A stretch of 22,071 bases of DNA from a virus: the IMG/VR virus record IMGVR_UViG_3300011424_000003, positions 1 to 22,071 of that record; one strand, written 5' to 3'. This document shows positions 1 to 22,071 of this stretch, piece after piece. Below the pieces are notes generated by a model. That model was given only the letters and a program-made list of their open reading frames with translations, had not been told where the DNA came from and ran no database searches. The position numbers and the translations under genes are program-made. Positions within the stretch are counted from its first letter, which is position 1; each line of letters begins with the position of its first letter.

Positions 1-170
1 CCTATCCCCGCCAGCAAGATTACGAAATCCCGCTCACGAGATTATCTAAACCCGCTCTGCGTTATTAAGAACCCCCTGAAAAGGAAAGAGAAACTAGTAA
101 AGTAAAAGCCCAAAAATCACATACTGGTAGAATAAGTGGAAGGAGCCATGGGAGTGTCGTATAATCTACG
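1..170. repeat. Left inverted terminal repeat (~170 bp)
   Basis: The reverse complement of the last 170 bases matches the first 170 bases. Positions 1-123 are identical, and the only differences up to 170 are at 124, 144 and 146, after which the arms diverge. The repeat starts with a GC-rich array (CCCGC-headed units) and its inner part (117-170) is the 3' end of the terminase large subunit gene. Diverged inner bases show the two arms are separate sequences rather than a single arm read back on itself by a simple hairpin artefact. The outer 123 identical bases could still be a collapsed repeat at an assembly break. Confidence 0.95.
7..71. repeat. Iteron-like tandem 22-bp units, left end
   Basis: Three imperfect units follow head to tail at 7-28, 29-50 and 51-71. 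Each begins CCCGC and continues into an A/T-rich half; units 1 and 2 share 14 of 22 positions, including a common AGATTA core. A C-run at 72-76 follows at the next 21-22 bp step. Regularly spaced units of about 22 bp are what plasmid replication initiators and some packaging proteins bind, so this could be an origin or end-recognition site. Function is inferred from spacing only. Confidence 0.5.
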
Positions 171-1427
171 ATATACCACCCCTAGATATCTCACCGCATC
201 AGCAATATGGACAGCCCAATTATCTAATGGCTTCTTGTCATAGACTCCTAAGCCTTCTTTAAATAGACGTTGATACTCTCTTAAAGCTCTCACTAATAAA
301 TCACAATTAAGTTTATCGACACGAAGCCTAGGGAACATATATCGAACAGCTTCTATACCGTCATCAAACGCCATCTTAGGAACCATTTGAAAGTGCCAAC
401 CATAGCGTCTAGCTTGCATAAGTCTAGACTCTGCGTGTTCCCAACCTTGATGCTTATGGTCTATGTCATGAGGACCAAAGTGGTTTCCCCATTGACATCC
501 AAATATTTCACGGACCCTTTCGGCTTCGTCGAGATATGATTTAAAACCACGTTTTGAATCGTGGATAAGGTAAAGTAGATGAATAAACTTACCAGTAACC
601 TGAAAAAGAATTCCCGCCGTTGCATCGGTACCTCCTAAATCCCATATGGAGTGTAATTTGAGTCGAGGGTCAGGCTTAAGCATCGTGATACGACCCTCTC
701 GCACCATGTCGCCCATCTCTTGAGTATAGTATGCACCAAGATTACCTACTTCGAAATCGACAAAGAATTCTTGTCGAATTAATTCATCAGACATACCTAA
801 ATCTTTGGCTCGCTTGATATCTTTTTTAGAGATGATAGGAGTGATACCATCATGCTTGAAAGTTTGGTCTACGCTAAGATGTTCAATATGATAATCGGGT
901 AAATCTCTAACAGCATTATAGACTTCGAATAGATGATTCATTCCTCTGGGAGTGCTATTAATAATTTCTATGCCTTTATTCTGCACTAGAATAGGGTTTA
1001 GATATTGTCTTGCTAACGGATTATGTAGAGCAAACTCAGAGTAAATAAGAGTAATAGGATTGGTACCCATGAGACTGTCATAATTATTTGAACCTGCTAG
1101 AATTAGACGACTACCATTGTATAGAGTAATTTCCATACGAGCTTCATTTTTTCTAGAGATTAAGGCATCAGGAATAGCGTTTAGAAATGGTTTACCATCA
1201 AAGTCCATACCATTCCAAATAACACTTCTAGCTTGTGCGTAAAGTGGAAAGAGATAGACGTGTGTTCCTAATCTTTTTAAACCTCTCAGAACCCACGCTT
1301 CAAGACAAAAGATATCTTTGCCTGCCCGACGATGAATGATAGCACAAATATTCTTATCTTCTAAAACAGCCTTGAACATTCTTTTTTGAAAGTCATAAGG
1401 ATTAATAGAAGGAACTTTAATATAAAT
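117..1427 (-). CDS. Terminase large subunit (packaging ATPase/nuclease)
   Basis: This is the DNA-packaging motor and headful/end nuclease that docks on the portal. Numbered from the first Met (1379), the ATPase shows an atypical Walker A (RRAGKD, 17-22), Walker B (LIYSE, 111-115) and the coupling motif STPRG (142-146). The nuclease half shows D247 (WDLGG), D305/D307 (HDID) and HxxDA at 391-395. The ATG at 1379 has no Shine-Dalgarno and sits only 16 residues before Walker A. The frame is open upstream to a TAA at 1431-1433, and GAGG (1436-1439) lies 8 nt before an in-frame ATT (1425-1427). That start adds IYIKVPSINPYDFQKR, the usual kind of lead-in to this Walker A, giving 436 aa. An ATA at 1428-1430 is an alternative. 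It is shorter than T7 gp19 (586 aa). Its last 17 codons lie inside the left terminal repeat. It is the last gene of the leftward operon. Confidence 0.93.
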   Translation of the reverse strand: MYIKVPSINPYDFQKRMFKAVLEDKNICAIIHRRAGKDIFCLEAWVLRGLKRLGTHVYLFPLYAQARSVIWNGMDFDGKPFLNAIPDALISRKNEARMEITLYNGSRLILAGSNNYDSLMGTNPITLIYSEFALHNPLARQYLNPILVQNKGIEIINSTPRGMNHLFEVYNAVRDLPDYHIEHLSVDQTFKHDGITPIISKKDIKRAKDLGMSDELIRQEFFVDFEVGNLGAYYTQEMGDMVREGRITMLKPDPRLKLHSIWDLGGTDATAGILFQVTGKFIHLLYLIHDSKRGFKSYLDEAERVREIFGCQWGNHFGPHDIDHKHQGWEHAESRLMQARRYGWHFQMVPKMAFDDGIEAVRYMFPRLRVDKLNCDLLVRALREYQRLFKEGLGVYDKKPLDNWAVHIADAVRYLGVVYRRLYDTPMAPSTYSTSM

Positions 1428-1452
1428 TATTTAATCCTCAGAATTAAAAACT

Positions 1453-1647
1453 TTACACGCTTTCATTAATAGGGCGGTCATAGTTTCCATAAGCAGGCTC
1501 AATGCTATGGCGAATATAAGTGTGAGGATGAGCAGCCATCTCCGGAATTGGGAGACGAGGGCCATATTTTTGGGTTTCATGTTCTTGCCGCTCGTCTTCA
1601 AAGTTATCTGCATATATAGATTTATTTACCATACTTTCTACGCTCAT
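1453..1647 (-). CDS. Small hypothetical protein, 64 aa
   Basis: I do not recognise this protein. It is polar and rich in His, Pro and Tyr, with no membrane segment or signal peptide. It starts at 1647 behind AAAGAG, overlapping the end of the 52-aa gene by 26 nt. An ATG at 1632 is possible. It stops 25 nt before the probable ATT start of terminase, so the four leftward genes look translationally linked. A competing frame, 1613-1431, encodes a 60-residue protein with one hydrophobic segment. It has no ribosome site, and I judge it to be the shadow. Placement just before TerL is where T7-like phages often keep small packaging or lysis proteins, but the sequence itself gives no function. Confidence 0.55.
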   Translation of the reverse strand: MSVESMVNKSIYADNFEDERQEHETQKYGPRLPIPEMAAHPHTYIRHSIEPAYGNYDRPINESV

Positions 1648-1780
1648 GCTCTTTATTTTCAGCTTGTCTTTGTTCAGAGTAAGCTATAGCGACGGCCTGC
1701 TTCTGAGGATAATTTGAATGCATAAGTTCAGCTACATTCTTGCTAAAAGCTTCTTTGCTATCGCTATGTATAAGAGGCAT
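1622..1780 (-). CDS. Small conserved phage protein, 52 aa
   Basis: This gene reads MPLIHSDSKEAFSKNVAEL..., then PQKQAVAIAYSEQR, and ends in a basic tail (HERRKYGK). The pattern MPL-x-x-S...K-N...PQKQAVAIA belongs to a small protein seen in many tailed-phage genomes as a hypothetical protein. I recognise the pattern from general knowledge of phage genomes, and its function is not known to me. It has a strong ribosome site, AAAGGAG, 8 nt before the ATG. It lies between the coiled-coil gene and the 64-aa gene in the leftward operon that ends in TerL. It is soluble, highly charged and lacks cysteines. Confidence 0.8.
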   Translation of the reverse strand: MPLIHSDSKEAFSKNVAELMHSNYPQKQAVAIAYSEQRQAENKEHERRKYGK

Positions 1781-1799
1781 GCTTATCACTCCTTTATTG

Positions 1800-2039
1800 T
1801 CAAACTGGATTCTCTAACCCGGAAATTTTAGCATTAAGTTCTTCATTAACTTTTTGACCTAAAAATAAATTAGTTCTTAAGCTTAAATTAGAAATAATAG
1901 CTTCATTCAAGTATTGTTTATGAGCATCTAATTGCGCAAGTAGATTCTTAACACCTTCGTTAGTTTGAGCAATTTGTGTTTTAAGCTTAGTATTTTCAGT
2001 TGTTAAAGTATCGACTTGATTTTGTAATTCTTCAGACAT
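1800..2039 (-). CDS. Coiled-coil protein, 79 aa
   Basis: This is a hypothetical protein and the first gene of the leftward operon. Residues 1-35 form a heptad-like coiled coil (LQNQVDTLTTENTKLKTQI), followed by a second helical part (NEGVKNLLAQLDAHKQYLNE) and a third near residues 60-75. There is no signal peptide, membrane segment or lipobox, which argues against a spanin despite the position near the terminase. The start has AAGAGA 8 nt upstream and sits about 29 nt downstream of the predicted transcription start of an extended -10 promoter. An oligomerising accessory or assembly factor is possible, but nothing more specific can be said. Confidence 0.7.
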   Translation of the reverse strand: MSEELQNQVDTLTTENTKLKTQIAQTNEGVKNLLAQLDAHKQYLNEAIISNLSLRTNLFLGQKVNEELNAKISGLENPV

Positions 2040-2074
2040 TTAAAATTTCTCTTAATTATTAATTATAATTAAAA

Positions 2075-2083
2075 ATTATAGCA
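2075..2083 (-). promoter_or_regulatory. Extended -10 promoter for the TerL operon
   Basis: On the minus strand the sequence TGC-TATAAT forms a perfect extended -10 element (TG at -14/-15 plus consensus hexamer). There is no good -35, as expected for this promoter type. It would start transcription near 2068 and read through the coiled-coil, 52-aa and 64-aa genes into terminase. It looks like a host sigma-70-type promoter. Confidence 0.6.
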
Positions 2084-2096
2084 CGATTTAAAAGCA

Positions 2097-2124: not shown

Positions 2125-2159
2125 CACTGGTTCAAAAATATCACTAAAGAGATTAAAAA

Positions 2160-2606
2160 ATGATTAAGAAATTTATAATAGTAATATCCTTACTTTTATC
2201 TTCCACTGCATTTGCAGTACATCCATCAAGCACATTAACTAAGATTTGGCCATTTGATGAGAGTCGTCCCATTCCACTTAACATGCATGCAACTTTTAGT
2301 TCTTATCACGGGTCAATAACATCAAATAGTTCGGCTTTAGAAAAAGATGCTAGAGCTTGTTTTATACTTACAGCTTGTCGTGAACATGGGCCTAAAGCAA
2401 CTAAACAGACAATCGTATGCCGTGATTTTAAATCTCCTTCTCAATCTGAGATTCGTCAAGATGCAAATATAAGTTTAGATTATGTTGCAACGTATCCAAT
2501 GCGTTGTACCATAGTTGCAGAGACAGTTCTTAGTGGTTCTGAGCCTGCTTATTCTGCCGATGTTAAGAATGTGCTGTTTTCAAATAATAAAGGTAATGAT
2601 GTTTGA
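2160..2606 (+). CDS. Secreted accessory ('moron') protein, 148 aa
   Basis: This is an unrecognised protein with a textbook Sec signal peptide: a KK n-region, a hydrophobic core (FIIVISLLLSS) and cleavage after AFA (residue 19). The mature part of about 129 aa has four cysteines (67, 73, 87 and 116), enough for two disulfides in the periplasm. Residues 100-125 look like beta strands. It faces against the surrounding late genes, has its own promoter, and ends at a perfect 12-bp stem terminator. That is the classic layout of a moron, a gene expressed from the resident element to benefit the host or to exclude competitors. It could instead be an envelope inhibitor or lysis modulator. Its function cannot be told from sequence. 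Confidence 0.85.
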   Translation: MIKKFIIVISLLLSSTAFAVHPSSTLTKIWPFDESRPIPLNMHATFSSYHGSITSNSSALEKDARACFILTACREHGPKATKQTIVCRDFKSPSQSEIRQDANISLDYVATYPMRCTIVAETVLSGSEPAYSADVKNVLFSNNKGNDV

Positions 2607-2618
2607 AGGATTTTTATT

Positions 2619-2670: not shown

Positions 2671-5370
2671 TTATCTAACTCTTCTTGCATAAATGTTGCC
2701 GCTTCCTGTGACTGACCCTGCTGAAAATCCACAATAGGCAGATAAGTAAATAGTCGTTGTACTTGCTAAAATAGCTCTAAAATAAGGCGTCGTTATTCCT
2801 ATTGATGAAAATGCGGCGGCCGGTACAGCCCCTATATTTATAATAGAAGTTAAAGATACATCTGGTGCAGTTGCTGAAGTTGAACTTATCCAAGCTGAAG
2901 AAGAACCTGTTGAAGGTGTTGCAGAATAGTTAAAGTGTACATTTCCATAAACATCCCAATCACCAGCCGTAAGTGAAATTGATGTAATATTTCTTGAGAC
3001 GCCACTTGTAAAGGCAACCCCTGAAGCGATAACAACTGAACTACTAATAAATTCACCTACGCTTCCAGCAGCAGCATTAGAATTTGTTGAAACCCCCACT
3101 AAAGCAACTCCACTCGTTCCTTTACCTGAAAGAGTTAAAGTTATATTTGAATCTGTACCAAGAGCAGAAATAGTAGGACTTGCTGTAGTTAATGCCGATG
3201 CAATATTTACATAATTAACAGCAGTTGAGGGACCTGTTAACGTAAGAAAATTAGCAGCTACAACACCTAGGTTATTAGAGAAAGTAAATCCACCAGAACC
3301 TTTAGTAGTAAATAAACCAGTAACATTAGCATCGGTACCACTAAATTGAAATCCTGGAGCTGCTCCCGCTGCACTGTTAACAATAGTAAGAAAATTAACA
3401 GCAGCAGCTGCACCAGTAAACGCAAGTACAGGAAGATTATTAACTTGGTCATTAATAGCATTAATTAAAGGATTATTAATTGTTGGACTAGTTCCAAGAA
3501 CAGGAGCCCCTGTTCCAGTGGCTACAATCCAAGCAGGAACACCGGAAGCATTTGTTAATAATCCGGCACTATTAACAGTTGCTAATCCAGTAACAGTATT
3601 AGCACCATTAGAATATAAAATAGTACTAGCCGCATATGTATCAGCAAATGTAGCTGTACTGTATACATTTGACGTTCCATCAGACCTTATTATTTTACCT
3701 GCTGCGCCTACTGTACTCGGAAATGTTGCTGCACTCCAAGTAGGGGCGCCCGCACCCCCAGACTGAAATAACTGACCAGTTGTACCGACAGAAGATAACG
3801 CTATAGCTGTAGGGGTGCTATATGCAATAGAACCTGCACTAGCCGTCAAACTCGCATTCGTACCACCATTTGATAATGAAACAGGAAATATAATATTACC
3901 AAATTGAGAATAACTAAAAGCGGTGACATCTACAGTTGCAATTGTTACAGAATTATACCAAGCAGTTCCGGCAAGAGTAGCACCATTATTAACAATAATT
4001 AATCCCGTATTATTAATTTCTGAAGGAGTATCATATGTCGTCGCGCGTGTTAGAATATAATTTGAAGCACCAGAACCAACGTTAGTAACAGAATATATGC
4101 CTTCATTCGCAGCATTAGCTAAATTCTTAACTAATACAAGAGAGTTTAAAGGAGGGTTAACACCATCTAATGCTAAAGTTGCTTGAACACCTGCATTTGT
4201 TAAAGTAGCTCCGACACCTGAACCTGATTGAGTAACAGTTAGATTAGTTGTTGTTGCAGCATAAACAGCAGTACCGGTTAAAGAATTCAAATCTACGTAA
4301 TTTTTTGTCGCAAAATCGGACGGCTGAATGGGGTCTGCACCATTATTAATTTGGAAGCCACCCATATCAAAGTTTTGATTTTGAACGCCTAAGTATTGAA
4401 TATTAGTTTGCACTGCTTGAGGTAGAGTCTGGCTCCAACTAGGTACGCCAGCAGCACTAGATTGCATTACACTACTATTAGCAGGTGTAATAACAGCATA
4501 AGTATTAGAACCTGTAGTGTAGATTAGATTGTTAGCAACGGTGGTTAATCCAGCAATACTAGCTAAAGCCGCATTATAGGCTTGAACATTTACGCCAATT
4601 TCTAACCCTAAATTAATACGAGCTTGTGGAACGTTTGTTAAGTCAGAAAGATTATTAGTGGCTTTGAGAAAGTAAGTTGTTGGCACCATAGTGGGCAAAG
4701 CAACTCCAGCAGTAATATTCCCCCAAAACGTATTAGCAGTCATAGTATCAAAAGATATTGTTCCTGCATTGGTAATTGGGCCACCCGTTAAACCAAGACC
4801 TGTATTGATTTGAGTTACAGTACCACCACTGACAATCGTACTAATAGGTACAGATTCAATAGCAGTTCCAGCGCCGTTCATTGCCCAAAATTCATTACCG
4901 TTTAGAATAGGTAAAATAATATTAGCATTGGGAAAAGATGAATTAGGAGCAATCACAGCTGAGTAGTTATATCGAGGTGCAATTAATTGATTAACTAATT
5001 CAGCTTGCTGGTCTACTAAAGTGAGAATGCCGAAGTCATTATTCAACATACTAGGAGTGAAATTAGTATTGGTATAGAGATTTTCTCTATCAGCAGGAGT
5101 CATACGAGTTATAGTTACAATATCCCCCGCTGCGGATGGACTAACTAAGGTAACTTGAACTTCTAATTCAGCTCCAATAAAAGTGACAGAATACTGAGAA
5201 GGATAAGAAAGAATTTGTGTCTCATCGTTAGGAGCATCACCGAATGGTGTGACATAAACTACGACATCAGAAGCAAAGTTAGCAGTCCAATTCGTGCCAA
5301 AATCAACTTGGTTTAATATAGCTGTAGCTTGTGTGTAGGGAAGAATATCACCAATCACAACGTCTGACAT
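2671..5370 (-). CDS. Tail fibre, T7 gp17-like N-terminus
   Basis: This is the receptor-binding fibre attached to the tail tube. Residues 1-115 resemble the N-terminal attachment domain of T7 gp17, a beta-rich segment ending in TRMTPADRENLYTNTNFTP with a following helix (residues ~110-130) used to join the tail. The middle is Ala/Thr/Ser/Asn-rich fibrous sequence. Around residues 640-765 two related ~45-residue units (A-V-N-F/Y...GTD-A/S-N-V/I-T...KGSGG) form a shaft. The last ~125 residues are a distinct compact beta domain with SVGEFIS...ITSISLTAGDWDV, probably the trimerising, receptor-contacting tip. At 899 aa it is much longer than T7 gp17 (553 aa). It starts 8 nt after TAGGAT and is the last gene of the late operon. 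Host specificity would reside in the tip. Confidence 0.9.
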   Translation of the reverse strand: MSDVVIGDILPYTQATAILNQVDFGTNWTANFASDVVVYVTPFGDAPNDETQILSYPSQYSVTFIGAELEVQVTLVSPSAAGDIVTITRMTPADRENLYTNTNFTPSMLNNDFGILTLVDQQAELVNQLIAPRYNYSAVIAPNSSFPNANIILPILNGNEFWAMNGAGTAIESVPISTIVSGGTVTQINTGLGLTGGPITNAGTISFDTMTANTFWGNITAGVALPTMVPTTYFLKATNNLSDLTNVPQARINLGLEIGVNVQAYNAALASIAGLTTVANNLIYTTGSNTYAVITPANSSVMQSSAAGVPSWSQTLPQAVQTNIQYLGVQNQNFDMGGFQINNGADPIQPSDFATKNYVDLNSLTGTAVYAATTTNLTVTQSGSGVGATLTNAGVQATLALDGVNPPLNSLVLVKNLANAANEGIYSVTNVGSGASNYILTRATTYDTPSEINNTGLIIVNNGATLAGTAWYNSVTIATVDVTAFSYSQFGNIIFPVSLSNGGTNASLTASAGSIAYSTPTAIALSSVGTTGQLFQSGGAGAPTWSAATFPSTVGAAGKIIRSDGTSNVYSTATFADTYAASTILYSNGANTVTGLATVNSAGLLTNASGVPAWIVATGTGAPVLGTSPTINNPLINAINDQVNNLPVLAFTGAAAAVNFLTIVNSAAGAAPGFQFSGTDANVTGLFTTKGSGGFTFSNNLGVVAANFLTLTGPSTAVNYVNIASALTTASPTISALGTDSNITLTLSGKGTSGVALVGVSTNSNAAAGSVGEFISSSVVIASGVAFTSGVSRNITSISLTAGDWDVYGNVHFNYSATPSTGSSSAWISSTSATAPDVSLTSIINIGAVPAAAFSSIGITTPYFRAILASTTTIYLSAYCGFSAGSVTGSGNIYARRVR

Positions 5371-5390: not shown

Positions 5391-8300
5391 TTAGTTATTC
5401 TCAGCTGCTTTTTTGTTCCTAGGCCAATTCTGTCCTTCAATAAGTTTATCACTGAAATAACGCCCATACATAGCGCCAGAAATACAAGTCATATGAGCAG
5501 CAGTTTTCATACCCTGTTCGTTAATACCAGAATTAAACATTCCTATTACATCAGTTGCGCGAGCAGCTGTTGAACTAACAACATCACTCATTCCAAATAT
5601 TCCAGTTTTAACCCGGTTCTTAAATTTATCGTTTTTCAAATCACCTAATAATTTGTCATCTGACATTAAGTTAGCTATATTTAATACATTGCTAATTGAA
5701 CTCATAACACCACTATCGGTAAATGCTTCATAGGCATGCTGACCAGGAGTCATATCATCTGGCCATCCATCCTCTCCACGCGAAATTCTACGTGTAGGAC
5801 TAACCAAGGCACCTGCGCCCATAACCCACATCATTTTAAGAAGCATCTCTCCATCAGCATGCTGTAATGCAGGAATTAAATATCGATTAGTAGCTGCATA
5901 AGTCCAACCTGTAAATGTATGAAAAAATAAACCAAAAATTTTATCAGCAAAGAATGGACTATCAGCCATTCCTCTTGAAACAGAAGTATTTTGTATGCCC
6001 CGAAAAACAGCATCATTGAAGATATTTGCAGCTTCAAGGTCTTGCCATAGCCAGGATTTTGACATATAGCCGCCTAGTTTAGTCTTGAAGCCTTTAGATT
6101 CCTTATATGAATTCACCATTCTAGAAGCCCACACTTTAGGGTCTATGCCGTACTTTCTAAGATAGAGAGAATCTTTATTTGAGAGAAGCCCTTTAACTTC
6201 TTTATGTAAAAGCTCCATAAAATGGCTTTGAATAATGCTGCCATTCATACGTTGAATGCCATTGTCAATATATGGTGATAAATCTGTTAAAGCTGAAAAA
6301 TGAGCATATTTTTCTAAGCCACTCTGTATTTTGCCCATATTTAAATAAGGCTGAAGGTCAGAACCCCAATTCTTATCAGCATAGTTATTTAACATATCCT
6401 GAAGGCCTAAATTAATATGAGGAGCCATTTCACGTAAAGCTTCAGCATCTTTTGTCTTTAAAATCCCACCAAGACTTTCAATAATAGGATAGATTCCATC
6501 CCTTATAGAAGGCCATATACCATGTTGAAAACCTGCGAAAGCTAAATCAGTGATTTGTGTTGCAGGCATATTATGCAGGTTCACAGCAGCTGTTAATGAC
6601 ATCAAGGTTCGTCTGAACATCGTATCAAAATCACTTCTTTTATTAATACCCATCATTCTGGTTTCAAACAATTTTTGCATTGTATCTTTGATATCTTTAA
6701 ATTTTATATCTTCTTTTTTTAAGAGCTTTTGTTGTTTTATTATTTCTTTAGGGTCAGTAATTTTTTCTAATTTTTTATTTATAATAGCACGTCTTGATTG
6801 ATAACGATTTGAAAGACCTTCTGCTAGTTCTTTAAAGTCACCATTGACTGTAACATTTTCAAATGAAGTTTTTAAATGAGTTCGTTTAGATAAAAAATTT
6901 ACATAATTAGCAGTTTTAGCAAAAAGGTCTTTTGTCATAAAATTATTGTTATAAAGTATTTCATCTGGAATCATTAGAGTACGTTTTTTTAAAGGGTTGG
7001 TTGCATCATTGCCAGTGATTCTCCCGAAGATATCCGATATAACATCTTCTGGATGCATATGCATTATTGAATCGTAGCAAGCTTTAGCATGAATCTCTCT
7101 TTGCGATTGGGAATCAAACACATCACGAAATTTTAATCTATTATTCGGGTCTTTAAATTTAAAATTCAAAGGATTATAAAGACGAGGATTAATTTCACCA
7201 TGCATTGCTTTGTTATAAAGATTATATTCTTCATCTGAAAATTGATTCTTCAAATCATGTAATTTAGCTTCTTCTAAATCTATGTTTTCTTTTTGTTCAA
7301 TGTATTCTTGTGCATGAGGTTTAGCTTTTTCAACGGTAGTTTGTTTTTGCGCTGTAGATAATTTGCCTGAACTTTTAGTTTTTAATTTAGAAACAATTTT
7401 TTGTTGTTCTTCTATTTGTTTCTGTAATTTCTCACTAGGGCCCAATATAGATTTGAGTTCTTTAGCTTCATTAGCTGAAATAGCATTTCTATCTTCAATA
7501 TGGTAATCATATTCTGGATTATCACGCAATTCATTTTGTAACTTTTCTTTCATAACTGTTAATTGATGATTCATATCCTTATAAGTTTCAACAATATCTG
7601 AACGTGGAATAAGCGGTGTTTCTCTTATTCCTTCAACTAATCTTTTTTTAGAACCTTTTTTAATAGGTCCAATATAACTTCTTATTCCTAAACCTTCTTC
7701 TTTAGGATAAGCAATTTCTCGACTAGGATGCATTTGTAATTCACGTCTACCGAGTTCTGCAAATGCTTCATTGTGAGTAGATTTAAACTCTTCTATTCGA
7801 GCCTCTAAATCTTTTATAGGCTTCATTTTTTGAGTAATTAAAGCATCTGAATCCGCAAAATACTTAGAAACAACAGGAATCCAGGCAGAAGGATTTCCTT
7901 CATGAGTGCCCCCTATTACACCTTCATTTAATTGCATATGAGGAGTGTTATAGACGCGACTTAAATATGTTTCCATATTCCTAAAATAGTCTTTAGGGAG
8001 ATTATAAGCATCTAAATAGGAATGAGCAGAACTATCAATTATATTTCTATATAATGAAGCAAGATTATTAACTGGAGCATGTTCGCTTGGCTTTCCACTT
8101 ATCATTACTCTTTGAGCCATATCCATAAAATCTTCTTCATTTATCCAATCTGTAGATTTAGAATCTTGTGATAAAGCTTCAATTGACTTTTGTTTAGATG
8201 CATACCAGGCATTTTGGATATCTATAGCTGGACGAGCCATAATATTATAACCATTCATTTCAGCATGAAGACTTTTAGTTTGTGCTTTAAGAGCAGTTAA

Positions 8301-12266: not shown

Positions 12267-12275
12267 TTTTTCTCC

Positions 12276-14838: not shown

Positions 14839-15444
14839 TTAACCTATTTGTGGCCCTATTATACCAGTTATATTTCTCTTCGTTAGTATCGGTATTTGTA
14901 CATCAACAAATTGAGGCCTGTTTTGTGCATCGGCTGCGGCTGCTATAGCCCATTGAATATTTTTTTGAGCCATTAATGCTTTAAAATAATCAGGCTTTTG
15001 AGCACTTGAAAGACTTAAAAATCCAGCTATTTCATATATAAAATAGTTTACAAATGTAGCATTCAATTGTGCGATACTTGGAAGAAATGCAAATTCCATG
15101 TAAACAGGCGAGGAAGTTCCCCAGTTACACCAAATTTGATTATTAGAATATATCTCATATACATAATTCTGAGGAATGATTCGAATATTCTTAAGATAAC
15201 CTGCCGGTAAAAGATAAATCTGATTGAAATTAGTTTGAGGTGGCGGCACTTCAGTTGATAATGTTAATTGCTCAATTTTCATTGAGAAACGCCAATTACC
15301 AGTTCCTAAAATGCTAGGCAATAATAAATCGAATGCCTGTTCAGCTGCTATGACCATGTCATCTGCATCTGTAAGACTTATAACAGGTTTATGCCCTAAG
15401 AGCATTACAGCAAGACTTATTATTGATGTCTTCGTGAAGGCGAT
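14839..15444 (-). CDS. Tail tubular protein A (gp11-like gatekeeper)
   Basis: This forms the dodecameric ring under the portal. The family N-terminus is a helix of the type xTKTxIIxLALxxLGxxPVxSLTDxDD. Here that sequence runs across an internal ATG (15405). Upstream in frame it reads AFTKTSIISLAV, so the ATG start would cut the helix. There is no Shine-Dalgarno before 15405. GGAG (15454-15457) lies 9 nt before an in-frame ATC (15442-15444), which gives MAFTKTS... and 201 aa, close to T7 gp11 (196 aa). A start ATG at 15450-15452 is one base from the GGAG, is out of frame and stops after 10 codons. A sequencing indel or frameshift is the alternative. The rest is typical: MKIEQLTL, LPAGYLKNIRI, and DAQNRP near the C-terminus. 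Confidence 0.88.
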   Translation of the reverse strand: MAFTKTSIISLAVMLLGHKPVISLTDADDMVIAAEQAFDLLLPSILGTGNWRFSMKIEQLTLSTEVPPPQTNFNQIYLLPAGYLKNIRIIPQNYVYEIYSNNQIWCNWGTSSPVYMEFAFLPSIAQLNATFVNYFIYEIAGFLSLSSAQKPDYFKALMAQKNIQWAIAAAADAQNRPQFVDVQIPILTKRNITGIIGPQIG

Positions 15445-15504: not shown

Positions 15505-16332
15505 TTAAACAGTTGGAACAATCTTATACCAAATGTGTGCAACTAGTGAACTACCTGTACCAGTAGTAAATGCGCCCGTTATGTTGGAAAGATATAGACC
15601 TTTGTTAACGCAAGTCGTAAACGTCTGCGCTACAACACCCATATTGAATCCAAATCCAGTGCTAGCAACTACGAAAAAGTCAGCAGCAGCACGAGTAGTA
15701 GATGCAATAACGCCAGCACCATTCGCAGTTGAATCATATTGAACAGCAGCTACACCACCTGCAGCAAAAGCCGCACTTCCGAAAGTTAATAACAAATCTA
15801 ACTTATCTAGTACGATTAAAGTATTAGCACCACCAGCAGCTACAAGTAATTTAGGAGCAGCATACATACCATTAAATTCAGCAGCAGTAATAGGAACAGC
15901 TAAATATTGAAGAGTATTTAATGCTAGCTTAGCTGAGGTAACATTGTTATCCAGAATCTTAACAGTTGTTACTGCATCTGAAGCTAATTCAGTTGCGGTT
16001 ACTGCGCCAGCGACAATATTTGCTGTACCGATAGAAGTTGTTAGACCCATACTAACTACGGTGACCGAAGTAGATGATACAGTTGCTACTGTAACTGCAA
16101 ATGATGCATCCGTTCCGCTGCCCCAAATAATATCACCAACATTTAATATATTAAAAAGTGATAGGAAATAATCCGCCGCTATAATCGTAGCAACAGTATC
16201 ATTTGGGCTTGCATACGTAAAAACATTAATAGTATTTACTACTGTAGGTGAGCCGCCAAAGGGCGTAACCGTTTCTTGTCCAGCATTCATCGAGGGTTGT
16301 TGGCAACCCCAGTTTGCAATTGTAAAAGCCAT
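15505..16332 (-). CDS. Capsid decoration / head-fibre candidate, 275 aa
   Basis: This is an unnamed virion protein directly after the major capsid gene. Three parts are visible: an N-terminal beta domain (~1-105), a short fibre-type linker of repeated A-V-T-x-x-K/E-I/L units at ~108-140 (GAVTATELASDAVTTVKIL, then NNVTSAKL), and a C-terminal beta domain rich in Gly/Ala (AAFAAGGVAAVQYDSTANGAG). The linker motif is widespread in trimeric tail and head fibres, so a trimeric protein projecting from the capsid is likely. A minor tail component is the alternative. It has a good ribosome site (GGAG, 9 nt). No enzyme motif is visible. The assignment is by position and repeat type. Confidence 0.6.
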   Translation of the reverse strand: MAFTIANWGCQQPSMNAGQETVTPFGGSPTVVNTINVFTYASPNDTVATIIAADYFLSLFNILNVGDIIWGSGTDASFAVTVATVSSTSVTVVSMGLTTSIGTANIVAGAVTATELASDAVTTVKILDNNVTSAKLALNTLQYLAVPITAAEFNGMYAAPKLLVAAGGANTLIVLDKLDLLLTFGSAAFAAGGVAAVQYDSTANGAGVIASTTRAAADFFVVASTGFGFNMGVVAQTFTTCVNKGLYLSNITGAFTTGTGSSLVAHIWYKIVPTV

Positions 16333-16378: not shown

Positions 16379-17209
16379 TTAAGATTCATCACAGTTGATT
16401 TGGATGATACCCAGGTTATCAATCGTGATTGCTCCAGCAGAGAAGATTCCATTTACTAACCAAGAAGTTTCACGAGGTAAGTAGTTAATCTCAGTGCGGA
16501 AGTCATGCCCAATACCCATACCGGTTGATTGCTTGTGCCAGAAGAATGTTTTACGAATATCTGGGCTAACGAAAGGTAATCCACCTTCAATCATCTCAGG
16601 AATGATAATAATGTTTACACCAAGATAATCACGTACGAAACCTTTATCCAATACACGATTCTGTGTATAGAAAGTAGATACGAACTGGTCAGCTTGAAGA
16701 AGTGATTGAAAATTGCTGGCCGACATTGCAGCAAATCTTTCTGGTAAAGGAACAGCATTATTATCGAAAAATTGGATTGCTTGAGTGTACTTAACATAAG
16801 TCATGTTAGTACTGCCATCCAAAATTGTTTGACCTGGAGATACTGCTAAGGAATCAATAATGATTTGGTCGGAACGACGACCTAAAGCATTCGCTACTAA
16901 CATAGCGTTTTCCATCTTAGCATCAAAGTTTACTGTTAATTCTTGTACAGAATCAACGGCAGTTGGAGCAGTATACTTTTGTAATATTGCCGATGTTTGA
17001 CTGTAAGTTGGGTCTTGAATAACAACAGTTTGTAAATAACCAGTTGGAACTGCCTGAATTTGGTTTACTTTGCGGAATGAAACAGTAGCACCTATCACGT
17101 CTCTACGAACGCGAACAGTATCACGTAATAAAAAACCAAGAGATTGATATTCTGCTTTTACAAGCGCATCAAACTCAATTTGTTGGACGGCTGTCAATGA
17201 AGTGGACAT
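16379..17209 (-). CDS. Major capsid protein, 276 aa
   Basis: This is the shell subunit, expected to have the HK97 fold shared by tailed phages. Evidence is its place after scaffold and before decoration and tail genes, its size, and its composition. It has an N-terminal helical arm (QQIEFDALVKAEYQ), a beta E-loop region (TGYLQTVVIQDPTYSQT), a long spine-helix region (NAMLVANALGRRSDQII), and a C-terminal P-domain ending with SAGAITIDNLGIIQIN. It is shorter than T7 gp10A (345 aa) and resembles the ~280-310 aa capsid proteins of other podovirus groups. It has a strong ribosome site, AGGGG 7 nt before the ATG, and the longest non-coding leader of the late block (163 nt), suggesting its expression is set separately. 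Confidence 0.88.
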   Translation of the reverse strand: MSTSLTAVQQIEFDALVKAEYQSLGFLLRDTVRVRRDVIGATVSFRKVNQIQAVPTGYLQTVVIQDPTYSQTSAILQKYTAPTAVDSVQELTVNFDAKMENAMLVANALGRRSDQIIIDSLAVSPGQTILDGSTNMTYVKYTQAIQFFDNNAVPLPERFAAMSASNFQSLLQADQFVSTFYTQNRVLDKGFVRDYLGVNIIIIPEMIEGGLPFVSPDIRKTFFWHKQSTGMGIGHDFRTEINYLPRETSWLVNGIFSAGAITIDNLGIIQINCDES

Positions 17210-17372: not shown

Positions 17373-18056
17373 TTATGCGCCCACTTTGTCAACAAAGCCT
17401 GGAGCATTTTTAGAAGCAACTTCTAAACGTTTCTGTAAATCTTTTCGATAGCCTTCATCAGTTTTATATTTAGCAAGATTATTTGATAACTCTAACTTGA
17501 TATCATCTAAGGAGGCGGAGCCTGTAACCGAGCCATTATCATTAGGTACTTGTGGTGTGCCGGACATCATTTTTCCTCTTAATTCTTCTAGTGCTTTAAT
17601 TGAAGCTGCATTAGTTAAGCTACCTGTTAAAGCTTCATAAGCATCTTTTGAAAGGTTAGCTTTCGCCCAATTATCCAAGACTACAACACGTTCTTTGCCA
17701 TTATCACCTAACTTCTTAATTTCTTCATTGTTATCTATTGTGAATTCGTCCATGTACTTATCAACGGACTCCAACATTTTATCAATGAATTCTTGAGGAA
17801 CGCGTTTTTCTTTAGCAAAGGCTTGTAAGTCTTGGAATGGTGCATAGTCAGGGTCAAGAAATTTTGACTTAGTAAAATCATAATTATCAGGAACTATTCC
17901 TACACGTTTTTCAAGTTCAGTATAGCTCTTTGATAAGTCAGCTACTGTTTTAAACTTGTCTGGTAGCCAACTTGGTCTATCACCTGAGCCTGGCATTCCT
18001 TCATCCAGGAACCAGCTTGGCTGAGATTGTATTTCGGGTGGTGTCTCCACTGTCAT
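17373..18056 (-). CDS. Scaffolding protein (gp9-like), 227 aa
   Basis: This is the capsid assembly protein that templates the procapsid and is lost on maturation. The diagnostic N-terminal motif DRPSWLPDKFK followed by ADLSKSYTELEKRVG (residues ~26-54) is shared by podovirus scaffold families. The rest is highly charged and helical (FAKEKRVPQEFID, KELRGKMMSG), and the C-terminus (KNAPGFVDKV) is a helix that would bind capsid. At 227 aa it is shorter than T7 gp9 (307 aa). Its ATG shares one base with the upstream stop (TAATG), and AGGA sits 8 nt before it. Position directly before the major capsid gene fits. Confidence 0.9.
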   Translation of the reverse strand: MTVETPPEIQSQPSWFLDEGMPGSGDRPSWLPDKFKTVADLSKSYTELEKRVGIVPDNYDFTKSKFLDPDYAPFQDLQAFAKEKRVPQEFIDKMLESVDKYMDEFTIDNNEEIKKLGDNGKERVVVLDNWAKANLSKDAYEALTGSLTNAASIKALEELRGKMMSGTPQVPNDNGSVTGSASLDDIKLELSNNLAKYKTDEGYRKDLQKRLEVASKNAPGFVDKVGA

Positions 18057-18370
18057 TATTTAGTTCCTGCTAATATTCTTTGTTGATGCGAACGAACCGA
18101 ACCAAGTAGCATTCTACCAAATTCTTTAAATCCTTCAGCCCATAGAACATCTAACTGATATGTCGCTGTTCCACTTTTAACTAATGCAGGAACAAGGTAC
18201 CTTTCTTTGACTAACTCTAAAAATCTTTTACCCTGAGCATTGCTTTCAAATAGCTCAAAGCAGAGTTTGTCAAATTCAATTATTTGTGGGTTATTTTTTA
18301 GTTCATCGATACTTTTTTGATATCCCGAGAAGAAGTTCTCTTGCTCAAGAAATGGATTGTTTTGCTCCAT
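18056..18370 (-). CDS. Small Bbp19-like protein between portal and scaffold, 104 aa
   Basis: This is a helical, acidic-to-basic protein. The core reads FELFESNAQGKRFLELV...FKEFGRMLLGSV (residues ~38-92), which resembles the pattern F-x-S/T-x-x-G-x-x-V/F-L-x-x-L...GxR of the Bbp19-like family found between portal and scaffold genes in several podoviruses. The role of that family is not established to my knowledge. A head assembly or internal protein is likely from context. GAGGA lies just before the ATG, and the gene is coupled to scaffold by the TAATG overlap. The family assignment is from memory of the pattern only. Confidence 0.65.
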   Translation of the reverse strand: MEQNNPFLEQENFFSGYQKSIDELKNNPQIIEFDKLCFELFESNAQGKRFLELVKERYLVPALVKSGTATYQLDVLWAEGFKEFGRMLLGSVRSHQQRILAGTK

Positions 18371-18380: not shown

Positions 18381-20030
18381 TTATGAAGTAGCTATAGGTT
18401 GTTGACTTGGGTTTTGTGGTGGTTCTGGCATATTACCTTGTGGGTTAGCAAGCTCAGCCATGCTTTGTTTGTTTTGTAATTGCTGCATAACACGTTGAAC
18501 ATCTTCAGGCTTATTCAAGAAGCGTTCATCTATCTGTAGCATGTCAGCAATCATATAAGGAGTAGTCTTAGGATTAATATATAATTGTGTTGCTTCTGGT
18601 CCCATGATTCCTTGCATTACTTGAATGTACTGTACAAAACGCTCAACATCAGCTCGACCTTTAGATAATGCAAGAGGGGATTTATACTTAAATACTATGG
18701 GGATTCCACCTATATCAGGATATGGCAATAAACCCATTGAGTTTAGAATATAAGCAAATCTCTTGATTACAGGCCACATGAATTCTTGAATACTTCTAGA
18801 AAAAATAGGTCCAATTTTCTCAGCTAGTGTAGATTGCTTCATAGCAAGTTCATAGGCAGTTTGCGGCTGTACACTGCGTGAGTCTTGCGGCTGTTCTGCA
18901 AAGAGAAGTTGCTTAATTTGCATTCTCAAATCAGCAACAGTCATCTGCGCAAATTCAGGATTGGCACTATTAGGTAAGGGTATAAGAGGAACCTGACCAT
19001 TTGAACCAATAGGAGCAATTGGGATAATCGTGAAGGGTTCCAATTTGAATGTATGAGGATTAAAAACAGCGTCACTAAAACCCATGTAAGGTCGAAAAGT
19101 GTTAATATTTGCTGAAGCAAGCTCAATCCTTGCCATCTCATTTAAACTGATAATAGAAGGCAATGCTTCCATCACAGGACCACGTCCCCAGGTTTCGTTA
19201 TTGCATTTCTTCCAACGCCATACGATGCCTGGGTTTGATTCTAACCATTGGTAGTAAAGCAAATCATTGTCAGCCCAAACAGCATATAAATACTTCTTAG
19301 GTTGGTTAGCGAAATAGGCTACCCCTTCATATACATTTCTAATAACTGCATCAGGGTCACCAGCAATTAATGCTAGTAAATTAGGTGTAAGAATAATCTT
19401 AGGCCAACGAGTATTAAGCTCACATACTTTAAGGTTCTGCCATGTTCGAAACCATGATTCAATATTGCCATTTGCCGCTTCTTCAATAGCAAGCTTATCA
19501 GCAGGAATGCTTGTACAAATGAACGGTGTTTCATCATCGATTTGATTAATGACAAGCGCTGAAGTGCCTACAGCTAAATCATAGTAGCACTCGTTAATGG
19601 TCACATCGAAGTTTGAAGCATGGATGTAGGTAAACAACTGACGCATGTAATTATCAAGAATCATCTGAGCTTCTTGAAGAAGCTGTATGCTTTCTTCATC
19701 ATTAGAATCTTTGACGATTGTATCATCAACTTCTAAATATCCCCATTGAACCTGTGGGGGTGTCATCGTGTCATGGATTTTACTAACAAAGGTTGTAACT
19801 GCTTCTACAGCAGTTGTATCGTAGACTCGCGTATTTTGAATGGTCCCTTGGAATTCCTTACCCGGAAGATAGTATCTATTACGAAATGGTATCGCATAGA
19901 AATATGCAGCTTGCTGAATTGGAATCCACAAATCAGCTGTATATTTAGCTGAGTTATATCTCTTCCGCAAAGTCTCAAGCATTGAGTTGCCTGGCATTGG
20001 AACAGGAGGCATTCCTTGGGTTGTATCCAT
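18381..20030 (-). CDS. Portal / head-tail connector (gp8-like), 549 aa
   Basis: This is the dodecameric portal at the unique vertex, through which terminase packages and tail tubular A attaches. The sequence follows the T7-type head-tail connector family, with an N-terminal helix LRKRYNSAKYTADLW (21-35), then RVYDTTAVEAVTTFVSKI (68-85) and MTPPQVQWGYLE (89-100), matching the family pattern of a D-T/S-T-A...L...L-T/P-P...W. The central wing/stem and crown region follow (TWGRGPVMEALPSIISLNEM). The C-terminal ~45 residues are Gln/Asn/Pro-rich and probably disordered. Its length is close to T7 gp8 (536 aa). The start has GGATAAGATAA before the ATG, 5 nt after the previous stop. Confidence 0.95.
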   Translation of the reverse strand: MDTTQGMPPVPMPGNSMLETLRKRYNSAKYTADLWIPIQQAAYFYAIPFRNRYYLPGKEFQGTIQNTRVYDTTAVEAVTTFVSKIHDTMTPPQVQWGYLEVDDTIVKDSNDEESIQLLQEAQMILDNYMRQLFTYIHASNFDVTINECYYDLAVGTSALVINQIDDETPFICTSIPADKLAIEEAANGNIESWFRTWQNLKVCELNTRWPKIILTPNLLALIAGDPDAVIRNVYEGVAYFANQPKKYLYAVWADNDLLYYQWLESNPGIVWRWKKCNNETWGRGPVMEALPSIISLNEMARIELASANINTFRPYMGFSDAVFNPHTFKLEPFTIIPIAPIGSNGQVPLIPLPNSANPEFAQMTVADLRMQIKQLLFAEQPQDSRSVQPQTAYELAMKQSTLAEKIGPIFSRSIQEFMWPVIKRFAYILNSMGLLPYPDIGGIPIVFKYKSPLALSKGRADVERFVQYIQVMQGIMGPEATQLYINPKTTPYMIADMLQIDERFLNKPEDVQRVMQQLQNKQSMAELANPQGNMPEPPQNPSQQPIATS

Positions 20031-20035
20031 TTATC

Positions 20036-20338
20036 TTATCCGCCTAATTGAGTGCTTAAGTCATCTGAAGCAGGCATACCGACTCCTAGCATTCCTGTGT
20101 TTTGCGCTCTATTTCTGCTACGTAAACTTCTGATTTGCTTTTCTTCTATTCGGCGTTTTTGTACATCAGCAGTAGCTCTTGCTTCGTCTAATTGTTTTTT
20201 AGCTAGCTCAGTTTGCTCTTGATATGCTTTCATCTGAGCATTCATCATGTTTTGCTGCTCTCTATTTGCTTTAGCGTCATACGTACCAAACGATGCTACT
20301 TTCTCAAAGCTATCTCTAATATCAGTCCACCAGCTCAT
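20036..20338 (-). CDS. Small helical virion-associated candidate, 100 aa
   Basis: This is a hypothetical protein. It begins MSWWTDIRDSFEKVA, then a long amphipathic helix with heptad features (residues ~25-70) and a basic patch KRRIEEKQIRSLRSRNR, ending in a Gly-rich tail. The basic-then-Gly/Leu C-terminus resembles that of small tail-assembly/host-range proteins encoded just before the portal in T7-like phages (compare gp7.3, 99 aa), but this is a resemblance in size, position and composition only. TAGGAGAG lies 4 nt before the ATG. It is the first gene after a 106-nt regulatory gap. Confidence 0.6.
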   Translation of the reverse strand: MSWWTDIRDSFEKVASFGTYDAKANREQQNMMNAQMKAYQEQTELAKKQLDEARATADVQKRRIEEKQIRSLRSRNRAQNTGMLGVGMPASDDLSTQLGG

Positions 20339-20355
20339 AGTGCTCTCCTATATCC

Positions 20356-20419
20356 ATATGTGAACATATATTGTTTTCTTCTCAAATTCTTCCGGCTTAA
20401 TCTCTCTGTCAACATATAT
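20356..20419. promoter_or_regulatory. Operator-like repeats upstream of the late operon
   Basis: In the 106-nt gap between TerS and the next gene, ATATGT-GA-ACATAT (20356-20369) is a perfect 6+6 inverted repeat. TGTGAACATATAT (20359-20371) recurs as TGTCAACATATAT at 20407-20419, 12 of 13 bases, 48 bp away. On the minus strand the second copy contains a consensus -35 (TTGACA), but no good -10 follows at 16-18 bp. These look like binding sites for a dimeric regulator not encoded in a recognisable form here. Confidence 0.4.
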
Positions 20420-20444
20420 AATACGCCACGGTATTTTAATTTTT

Positions 20445-21077
20445 TTACGTAGCTCCTTTATCTGCGAAAGGATTTTTGACATTTGCATTCACCGCCACTA
20501 TTGACAAATCAGATTTTAACTCATCTATCTGCTTTTGTAACTCAAAGACTTGGTGAACATTTATTCCAACATTCACAGCTTCCATCAATTGTTTGAATTC
20601 ACTAGCTGTGAAATCACCCTCTGAAGCTTGTCTTAAAATCTCTTGATAATGTTTAGCTGGTGAGTCTTCAGGATTAACATTGATTCTAATCTTTGAGTTT
20701 CGACTAATACCGAACTTAGTCCATCCCATGAGTTTCCAATGTTCGAACTCAAAGTTAATGGTGCCCATCTGATACTCTTTATCTCGAATCTTTCTGCCTT
20801 CTTCGAACCAGAGTTGTTTAGCAACCATCTTAGTAAAAAACCAAAGACTTCTGAAAATCTCATGCTTGTGAACCCAGTTATAGAATGTTTGCTCACATAC
20901 CATTGCTTGAACACAAAATGCACTATGACATCCGAAATCTTTATTCATCATTACTTTTATAAGTAGTTTGCAATGTGTTTCTTCACAATACTTTAAATTA
21001 TATCTATTTTTAAAATGCTTATAAATGTCATCTACTATCATTCCGTCTTTTGTTGACATCTTGGTTTCATTCCTCAT
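20445..21077 (-). CDS. Terminase small subunit (TerS) candidate, 210 aa
   Basis: This is the DNA-recognition subunit of packaging. The N-terminal half has a helix-turn-helix-like pattern, FCVQAMVCEQTFYNWVHKH (residues ~54-72), typical of the DNA-binding domain of small terminases. The middle reads NFEFEHWKLMGWTKFG. The C-terminal ~80 residues are a helical oligomerisation region with heptads (VFELQKQIDELKSDL), ending with a charged tail. It is first in the late block and adjacent to the right terminal repeat, whereas TerL is at the far end, about 19 kb away. The start could be 21077 or the ATG at 21059. Neither has a well-spaced ribosome site; GAGGA sits about 11 nt before the second. Confidence 0.75.
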   Translation of the reverse strand: MRNETKMSTKDGMIVDDIYKHFKNRYNLKYCEETHCKLLIKVMMNKDFGCHSAFCVQAMVCEQTFYNWVHKHEIFRSLWFFTKMVAKQLWFEEGRKIRDKEYQMGTINFEFEHWKLMGWTKFGISRNSKIRINVNPEDSPAKHYQEILRQASEGDFTASEFKQLMEAVNVGINVHQVFELQKQIDELKSDLSIVAVNANVKNPFADKGAT

Positions 21078-21104
21078 GTCTATCGATTAACATCATTATT
21101 AGAT

Positions 21105-21132
21105 TTTATAGGATTTCTTGCATAATGTTAAA
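21105..21132 (-). promoter_or_regulatory. Promoter candidate for TerS and the late block
   Basis: On the minus strand TTTAAC (21127-21132) and TATAAA (21105-21110) are separated by 16 bp, predicting a start near 21098, about 20 nt before the TerS ATG. The -35 half overlaps the first codons of the divergent lysozyme-like gene. The match is only fair. Confidence 0.4.
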
Positions 21133-21622
21133 TATACTTCAATTTCGAGAACTTATTGTTAAGTCTACATTAAATGATTTGCTAATGTATTCACAAAATG
21201 CAGAAGAGTTAATGGTATTCACTTGCGCTGTAGAATCTTTGGGCGGTCATTATCTTAAGCAAGTTAAGGGTCCAGCATTAGGCATCTACCAAATGGAGCC
21301 TCAGACTTATAATGATATCTGGCAAAACTATATCCATAATCAAGGCGGTTTACTCTTAAAGTTATTCTCAAACTTCGGTCTTACTTATATGCCAGCTGAA
21401 GATATACTCATATATGATTTACGTTTCGCTACTGCTATGACTCGCATCTTTTATCAAAGAATTAAAGAGCCTTTGCCTGATTATCGTAATGTAGATGCTA
21501 TTTGGGCTTACTATAAAAAATATTACAATACAGAATTAGGTTCAGCTACTAAAGTCGAATCAATTAATAAATATACTAACTTCCTACATAACTCACATCT
21601 TCGTAATTTGATATTAGTGTAG
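21125..21622 (+). CDS. Lysozyme/transglycosylase-like muralytic enzyme, 165 aa
   Basis: This is a predicted peptidoglycan-cutting enzyme. VESLGGHYLKQVKGPALGIYQM (E37-S38 ... G53-I-Y-Q56-M) matches the layout of lysozyme-like transglycosylases, where a catalytic Glu in an ES pair is followed by an AxGLMQ-type motif. The C-terminal half continues with FATAMTRIFYQRI and VDAIWAYYKKYYNT, similar to the helical lobe with its Y...W-x-x-Y...K-x-Y motif. There is no signal peptide or membrane segment, so release would need a holin, which I cannot find. It might instead be carried in the virion. An upstream in-frame ATG at 21050 has no ribosome site and overlaps TerS. AGGA (21110-21113) is 11 nt before 21125. 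Its 3' end overlaps the convergent zinc-type gene by 47 nt. Confidence 0.7.
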   Translation: MLNILQFRELIVKSTLNDLLMYSQNAEELMVFTCAVESLGGHYLKQVKGPALGIYQMEPQTYNDIWQNYIHNQGGLLLKLFSNFGLTYMPAEDILIYDLRFATAMTRIFYQRIKEPLPDYRNVDAIWAYYKKYYNTELGSATKVESINKYTNFLHNSHLRNLILV

Positions 21623-21800
21623 ATGTAGATATATTACAAAAGCATACTCGACAAAGTAATCTTGTTACTCGCTCTGTATTTTCTGTCTTAACCCATTCGA
21701 TAGCAATGTAATCGTGAGGGCCTCTATTCTTACCGCATAGTTCTATTGCTTCTCTCTTTCTTCTAGCTTCAATATCATCTCTTGCTGGGTGTAGACTCAT
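21576..21800 (-). CDS. Small Cys/His (zinc-binding type) phage protein, 74 aa
   Basis: The core reads ELCGKNRGPHDYIAIEW, then ERVTRLLCRVCFCNIS. C-x6-H followed 27 residues later by C-x-x-C gives a likely zinc site, a layout I associate with small conserved phage proteins of unknown role. The start at 21800 has AGGA 9 nt upstream and gives MSLHPARDDIEARRKREA... A longer frame begins at 21899 (107 aa), directly inside the right repeat. It lacks a Shine-Dalgarno, but its ATG falls 7 nt after a TATAAT box, so a leaderless longer form is possible. Its last 47 nt overlap the convergent lysozyme-like gene. A DNA-binding regulator is conceivable but unproven. Confidence 0.6.
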   Translation of the reverse strand: MSLHPARDDIEARRKREAIELCGKNRGPHDYIAIEWVKTENTERVTRLLCRVCFCNISTSTLISNYEDVSYVGS

Positions 21801-21901
21801 TAATTCTTTTCCTAATATTCTTTCTATTAAATTTTTATATTCAAGAAGACTTTTTCTATATTTAGAAGAGCTTTTTACAATGTTTTCACTTATATTCATA
21901 C

Positions 21902-21955
21902 CGTAGATTATACGACACTCCCATGTCCCCTTCCACTTATTCTACCACTATGTGA
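21902..21955 (+). pseudogene. Orphan 3' fragment of terminase large subunit
   Basis: The plus strand of the right repeat encodes RRLYDTPMSPSTYSTTM then TGA. That is the same 17-residue C-terminus as the real terminase, with two conservative changes (A to S, S to T). All three nucleotide differences in this stretch keep the reading frame and stop. The codon just outside the match (TAC versus TAT) is also synonymous. No terminase coding lies upstream of 21902, so this is a duplicated tail brought in by the repeat. Confidence 0.75.
21907..21912 (-). promoter_or_regulatory. Inward-facing TATAAT in the right repeat
   Basis: A consensus -10 hexamer on the minus strand lies 7 nt before the ATG at 21899. 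There is no good -35 at 16-18 bp and no extended TG, so support is limited to the hexamer and its position. If active, it would read into the right-end small gene. The same hexamer exists at 160-165 in the left repeat, where it would read antisense to terminase. Confidence 0.3.
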
Positions 21956-22000
21956 TTTTTGGGCTTTTACTTTACTAGTTTCTCTTTCCTTTTCAGGGGG

Positions 22001-22065
22001 TTCTTAATAACGCAGAGCGGGTTTAGATAATCTCGTGAGCGGGATTTCGTAATCTTGCTGGCGGG
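22001..22065. repeat. Iteron-like tandem 22-bp units, right end
   Basis: This is the mirror copy of the three CCCGC-headed units found at 7-71, identical in sequence on the opposite strand. Having the array at both extreme ends with perfect conservation, while the inner repeat has begun to diverge, suggests either selection on or gene conversion of the outer part. Confidence 0.5.
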
Positions 22066-22071
22066 GATAGG

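Follow-up and report, generated by a model that had tools for sequence, protein, structure and literature searches.

Quadripartite circular maps, in which identical inverted repeats separate two unique parts that occur in two orientations relative to each other, are familiar from chloroplast genomes and the yeast 2-micron plasmid. The tailed phages P1 and Mu carry inverted repeats around an invertible tail-fibre segment of a few kilobases that is flipped by a serine recombinase, and T7 has direct terminal repeats together with its own RNA and DNA polymerases. In herpes simplex virus 1 (HSV-1), recombination between inverted repeats yields four isomers, and its UL12/ICP8 pair has been likened to lambda Red, as described in excerpts of the source (PMC8539067). 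Here we analyse the 22,071-base virus record IMGVR_UViG_3300011424_000003 (the whole stretch is hereafter the window), a T7-like virion module with inverted ends. We consider it, with a probability of about 0.82, to be the late (virion) half of a podophage genome of ~34 kb laid out as late module, inverted repeat (R), early module and inverted second copy of R.

The capsid protein of the window finds its best named relative in Methylophilales phage MEP301, at 36% identity. MEP301 resembles this clade in having a T7-like virion module, with RusA, YqaJ-type recombinase and ERF genes in a 34.8-kb genome. Excerpts of its description (PMC8024684) state that neither an RNA nor a DNA polymerase was identified in it and that it assembled as one circle, and they provide the link to the HTVC010P-type podophages; a polymerase-less phage with a T7-like virion is thus not new. 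The traits of the MEP301/HTVC010P-like phages (T7-like virion, host-dependent replication, and RusA, exonuclease and annealing genes) occur in the relatives of the window, not in the window itself. MEP301 differs from the clade in lacking the inverted repeat pair, in its gene order and in encoding a resolvase-domain protein, a family absent from all nine records scanned here. No distant inverted pair of at least 50 bp was found in MEP301, SI2, Vibrio 1.257 (a partial genome), Hodr, CKB-S2, ZP6 or ctVRi840, SI2 having a pair of 29 bp, and exact-word searches of the open-licence literature for the quadripartite plan showed no tailed phage with it.

The other systems are matched in part. The clade shares with HSV-1 two unique parts separated by inverted repeats, and an exonuclease with an annealing protein, but these phages are far smaller and tailed, no polymerase was found in them, and their isomers are proposed from contigs. 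Unlike the 2-micron plasmid, the clade lacks an FLP-like recombinase (PF00589 is absent from nine of nine records), and unlike P1 and Mu it would involve whole halves of the genome and has no PF00239 protein. The likeness to T7 lies in the virion module; PolA, by contrast, was not found here.

Window ends and the nearest relative

An earlier note, made from the letters of the window, had described inverted ends of ~170 bp, and these are real. The late-side (A) edge of R is present as a terL-side copy at positions 1..174 and as an inverted terS-side copy at 21898..22071, each of 174 nt and together 98% complementary. Their outer 123 bp are identical, and the four mismatches, at left-arm positions 124, 144, 146 and 171, all lie inside the 3' end of terL, the terminase large subunit gene. 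The longest exact inverted match measures 123 bp in the window and reached 14-18 bp across 20 first-order Markov resamplings. The outer repeat had no match in IMG/VR, in a search from which records very near the window may be excluded; no near DNA relative was found among named phages, and an Rfam scan of the window and a 1.5-kb stretch of contig G007 containing R gave no match.

Relatives were gathered by scanning IMG/VR with TerL and portal, and virion-module contigs of ~22 kb recur among them. The nearest, IMGVR_UViG_3300047388_000414 (30,979 bp; G001), matches the window in pieces of at least 90% identity totalling 20.8 kb, with a mean of 94.5%. Its terS-side repeat copy is internal, and beyond it lie another 8.9 kb, an early module carrying RusA, a 75% relative of the phrog_3657 gene of G007 and other small early genes. 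Bases 1 and 22071 therefore do not appear to be the ends of a molecule, and the clade lacks the hallmark of a protein-primed linear replicon, inverted repeats at the molecule ends, since the copy is internal in G001 and other contigs.

The ends of the window look instead like points at which an assembler merged collapsed copies of R. Among the 24 contigs with the late repeat, the two ends overlap exactly over 123 bp in five (the window, G002, G026, G031 and G045) and over 127 bp in two (G010 and G033), lengths that resemble what we take to be assembler k-mer sizes. The window stops exactly 123 bases past the point where its arms turn identical, as expected of a merged graph node; the assembler probably cut it out because two inverted R copies separate the late half from the other half. 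The remaining end overlaps, of 69 to 126 bp, have no k-mer explanation. Overlaps into R are near-equal within contigs (70, 70 and 69 bp in G007/G008, 87/85 in G018 and 88/86 in G019), and near-equal values also occur in two different phages of one dataset, which points to a technical cause.

Layout and contents of the repeat

Across 53 contigs (52 relatives and the window), many of which stop before a repeat could be seen, the inverted repeat flanks the late module in 24 and the early module in seven. Five contigs (G006, G007, G018, G019 and G045) contain both pairs, so that two unique parts are each bounded by the same inverted repeat pair; the window shows the late side only. In these five, R measures 539-1193 bp, the late unique part 20.3-24.1 kb and the early unique part 7.4-12.2 kb, corresponding to an inferred circle of 33.1-36.4 kb. 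R extends over about 0.5-1.2 kb, from the terL 3' end to the first early genes. Of 11 contigs that were re-examined, G025 shows a 25-bp match between its ends, G070 might be a true exception to the plan, and most of the others hardly reach the repeat. In G028 (oriented 108-237), a plus-orientation piece of a relative of the 107-aa open reading frame (ORF) that adjoins R in the window lies beside terL, where the repeat may reach into the gene.

At the contig level, 22 relatives link the virion module through the repeat to the early module. We name the early ends X, which adjoins the RusA-side genes (or, in genomes lacking RusA, the RecT-side ones), and Y, which adjoins the RecE-side genes. The terS end is joined to X in 12 contigs (G001, G007, G018, G020, G022, G034, G042, G044, G045, G064, G066 and G067) and to Y in five (G006, G008, G019, G063 and G065), while the terL end is joined to X in four (G012, G021, G016 and G043) and to Y in one (G041). 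These 22 comprise 19 from a 57-contig survey plus G016, G041 and G043 and are partly from the same strain, hence not all independent; the assignment of G016 was set by its identity with G066, and the tally omits G011 (one weak marker) and L046 (terS-X). Of the readings offered in the earlier note, the one that holds is thus the last, in which the module belongs to a larger genome and has a long inverted repeat on either side, since 22 contigs including G001 run into an early module. Sequence continuing past the ends into a replication module, which that note had named as its refutation, is seen in relatives, at contig level rather than in reads, and was not seen for the window's own molecule. 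The repeat pair is in itself a conserved genome plan, which the note had not foreseen, and this plan explains the recurring virion-only contigs of ~22 kb in databases, which could be mistaken for satellites or segments.

The edges of R appear to fall close to gene starts. On the terS side, the edge lies at most 53 bases from the start of the first ORF of at least 60 aa in 11 of 12 genomes, and on the early side an ORF of at least 35 aa starts within 45 bases of the edge at nine of 12 ends (G063 and G064 left out). Inside R, a core motif, GAGAGTTGTGGGGCACCGGAATC with a C-rich tract, occurs once per R and in the late-to-early direction in 19 of 26 R stretches, in a search that allowed up to six substitutions and gave a single match outside R across 26 contigs. 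It was not found in the other seven (G021, G022, G024, G028, G031, G042 and G070), some of which are incomplete. A 21-base form of the core matched four IMG/VR contigs, all of this clade (G063, G064, G007 and G011). A coding role for the core, which reads LRELWGTGI-like in some members, was dropped after in-frame stops were seen by eye in several. In seven of 18 R stretches a sigma70-like site facing the early module outdoes all 100 resampled controls, and in six or more it does not exceed chance; controls were equally good in about one-third to three-quarters of trials for G008, G011, G012, G016, G019 and G067. The window stops short of both the core motif and the promoter-like site.

Recombination between the repeat copies

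The two copies of R evolve in concert. In all 24 genomes compared, the nearest relative of a late-side edge copy is its partner in the same genome, at an identity of 0.965-1.00, and the best match to another genome is at most 0.743, apart from 0.93 for the pair formed by the window and G001. Between these two genomes five sites of the shared repeat differ, with both copies within each genome agreeing there, and the unshared changes sit at the inner edge, in terL. That copies are more alike within than between genomes implies recombination between them, and the five sites require it to have taken place after the lineages of the window and G001 parted. Homogenised copies need recombination but do not alone prove crossing over.

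Evidence on crossing over comes from three strains found with two or more R-crossing contigs. Strain 1 was sampled in three IMG datasets. Its contigs G016 and G066 are 100.000% identical over 6,854 bp of late sequence and over 3,789 bp of early sequence plus R, although G016 reads X-R-terL and G066 reads X-R-terS. The third contig, G065, equals G016 over 10,913 bp of the late module at 100.000% and reads Y-R-terS. From the same late end, G065 and G066 run into different early ends. The full R stands beside terL (G016) and beside terS (G065 and G066), in copies of 1,155, 1,155 and 1,154 bp whose one difference, of a single base, lies at the far edge, where the flanks begin to diverge. In strain 2, G043 and G045 share 10,810 bp of late sequence and 4,168 bp of R plus early sequence at 100% but are joined oppositely, and G044 agrees with G045; in each of these two strains the contigs connect one early end with both late ends. 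Strain 3 is indirect: from one late end of G063 and G064, which match at 99.95% over 9,619 bp, G063 continues into Y and G064 into X.

Taken with the internal copy in a close relative, the conservation of the repeat and the homogenisation of its copies, all seen on contigs, the full R beside both terL and terS in one strain argues that the two halves probably invert by homologous recombination between the R copies. A crossover would turn one half against the other, and the isomers would coexist. The phage's own RecE-like exonuclease, annealing-type protein and RusA resolvase may assist the exchange, and inversion would presumably leave expression unchanged, because both R copies carry the same early promoter-like site. 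A site-specific recombinase as flipping agent was considered and rejected, PF00589 and PF00239 being absent from nine of nine records.

Several points weigh against this reading. RusA and the RecE-like exonuclease VIII family (phrog_412) are each present in only six of the eight early-bearing relatives. The window shows only its late side and its own early module is not seen; two full R copies occur together in no contig, and G070 extends past terL without a repeat, though its other end may stop short of R. Contigs cross R although its copies look collapsed, and end overlaps of 69, 70, 76, 87, 88 bp and so on fit no familiar k-mer size. In strain 3 the R copies differ, G063 having ~160 bp extra and the 364 bp beyond being 98.6% alike, and that X and Y belong to one genome is only inferred for both G063/G064 and G065/G066. 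The opposite joins rest on contigs, presumably from short reads, and not on reads or depth; since R exceeds usual short-read inserts, joins across it may be arbitrary choices of the assembler, in which case the two inverted copies would still stand but opposite joins would be no proof of inversion. The weaker third strain does not lower the likelihood of this reading, because strains 1 and 2 and the edges of R carry the case. The extra ~160 bp of strain 3 (G063, oriented 12895-13056) lies in the copy beside Y and is absent from the G064 copy beside X, a sign that homogenisation is incomplete.

The likeliest alternative, though a doubtful one, is a genome that is linear, with its cut inside one R in the manner of herpes simplex virus, and that has one full internal R and a partial R at each end rather than a circular map with two full copies; isomers would still arise from it. 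It is favoured by the linear DNA that tailed phages package and by the R-crossing contigs, whose ends show no more than short stretches of the second copy; the full R beside both terL and terS in strain 1, however, needs two copies or an inversion of the linear form, and end overlaps of 123 or 127 bp look like graph ends. It is rather unlikely that two inverted R copies are present but the halves never invert, with gene conversion homogenising the repeats and arbitrary assembly producing the opposite joins. The length of R relative to usual inserts speaks for this, as does the fact that contigs cross R although its copies are identical, so that the crossing cannot rest on unique k-mers; yet opposite joins are direct in two strains and indirect in the third, and crossovers are likely where identical inverted copies lie beside recombination genes of the phage. 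Virion-only genes, inverted ends and recurring ~22-kb contigs would suit the earlier note's other readings, a segment of a bipartite phage, or a linear element or satellite that relies on a helper or host for its replication, with the arms as true terminal repeats, but these are very improbable, as 22 contigs join both modules through R and the late and early sides carry different R edges rather than one common terminus. Least probable of all is chimeric amplification or misassembly folding the terL end back, conceivable for a single contig judged at the contig level but contradicted by the recurrence of this layout in 24 of 53 contigs, which come from many samples and have divergent repeats, and independently by G001.

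If inversion is correct, a whole podophage clade keeps its virion and early halves as two mutually flipping blocks, bringing the herpesvirus and chloroplast plan to phages and offering a bacterial model of genome isomerisation through inverted repeats. It could also provide a possible route to concatemers for a phage without its own polymerase. Host polymerase would copy the phage DNA after loading by an O-like initiator. Speculatively, and with the chances against the proposal as a whole, there may be a tailed-phage counterpart of herpesvirus isomerisation: exonuclease/annealing recombination of the two inverted control regions during host-driven replication might turn theta forks into double rolling circles, which would make the concatemers needed by terminase. 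Each R would then have a packaging or origin site in its conserved core and C-rich tract, and packaging could start at either copy.

The early modules of relatives hold candidates for such steps. HTH_36 occurs in five of the eight early-bearing relatives, and the HTH_36 protein of G007 matches the replication initiation family phrog_1032 (E 1.7e-11), which makes it a candidate O-like initiator. RecT passes its Pfam cut-off in G019 and falls short of it in G034, and a single-stranded DNA-binding protein (SSB) is present in G045. The annealing candidate of G007 belongs to phrog_3657, a family without an assigned function, its putative role following from the fact that the gene sits beside RecE. 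PolA was absent from nine of nine records, some possibly incomplete, in scans whose controls matched in ten of 14; tyrosine integrase (PF00589) and serine resolvase (PF00239) were missing from the same nine, with controls matched, and neither single-subunit RNA polymerase (RNAP) nor protein-primed PolB was detected in any, though positive controls for both also failed to match. The early module of G001 further contains a 403-aa ORF with collagen-like GXX repeats (oriented 27301-28512).

Genes of the window

Accepted ORFs cover 95% of the window, nearly all on the minus strand. From the left, terL (117..1379, minus; phrog_2 E 1.3e-13, phrog_2472 E 7.4e-22) has its final 58 bases within the repeat and is followed by two small ORFs of 55 and 79 aa (1622..2039, minus; phrog_2423 E 1.1e-17 for the first), whose place is kept in relatives by tblastn. 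A 148-aa ORF on the plus strand (2160..2606) has a signal-peptide-like start by eye and no family match; in G006 a resembling 148-aa ORF lies in the early module (oriented 27133-27579), as if moved between halves, a likeness judged by eye and unaligned.

The T7-like virion module, with a PF12236 portal, tail tubes and internal virion proteins, occupies most of the remainder, all on the minus strand. It begins with a tail fibre (2671..5370; phrog_11393 E 4.7e-12) and a large T7 gp16-like internal virion protein (5391..9554; phrog_342 E 2.8e-29), continues with a 736-aa protein (9544..11754) that is assigned as an internal virion protein by its gp15 position, without a solid family match, and a small gp14-like internal virion protein (11754..12266; phrog_418 E 3.3e-7), and then encodes tail tube proteins B-like (12276..14825; phrog_376 E 1.1e-62) and A-like (14839..15405; phrog_394 E 8.5e-13). 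A 275-aa protein with weak fibre-like matches (15505..16332; phrog_28766 E 7.4e-6) adjoins the gene for the major capsid protein (16379..17209; PF19821 E 8.4e-46), next to which are a scaffold-like protein (17373..18056; PF05396 E 2.1e-5, below the Pfam cut-off; phrog_1052 E 1.9e-4), a 104-aa ORF kept in relatives without a family match (18056..18370), the portal or head-tail connector (18381..20030; PF12236 E 1.8e-67) and a 100-aa ORF kept in relatives without a solid family match (20036..20338). A putative terminase small subunit (TerS; 20445..21077) is placed by position and a weak match to Sf6 TerS (E 0.023). The plus-strand gene at 21050..21622, whose true start is likely near 21125 by alignment, encodes a phrog_3108 protein (E 8.1e-35) that appears lytic-enzyme-like by eye, its function not being annotated in the library. 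The first late gene beside R is a 107-aa ORF (21576..21899, minus), whose ATG straddles the repeat edge.

Profiles thus bear out the virion families of a virion-only gene content, although the claim that every gene needed is present was too strong, as TerS is weak and lysis genes were not clearly identified. Among 20 window proteins scanned with profiles, no polymerase, primase, helicase or integrase family was matched. Scans aimed at PolA, tyrosine integrase and serine resolvase found none of them in the window, with positive controls matched; single-subunit RNAP and PolB type 2 also gave no match there, but their positive controls likewise failed.

No GTDB contig was found with this capsid. 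A 4.5-kb contig of the clade (CAIKYO010000050.1; portal 73%) is binned into an uncultured Burkholderiales metagenome-assembled genome, a weak host hint that we judged too weak for a host claim. Two repeats of other kinds were seen in named phages: SI2 has an identical 448-bp direct repeat at its record ends (1-448 and 36881-37328), either a terminal repeat or a circular-assembly overlap, and Pelagibacter phage Hodr has an imperfect palindrome at 11942-12635, with arms of ~350 bp that are 69% identical by BLAST, which straddles the point where transcription diverges.

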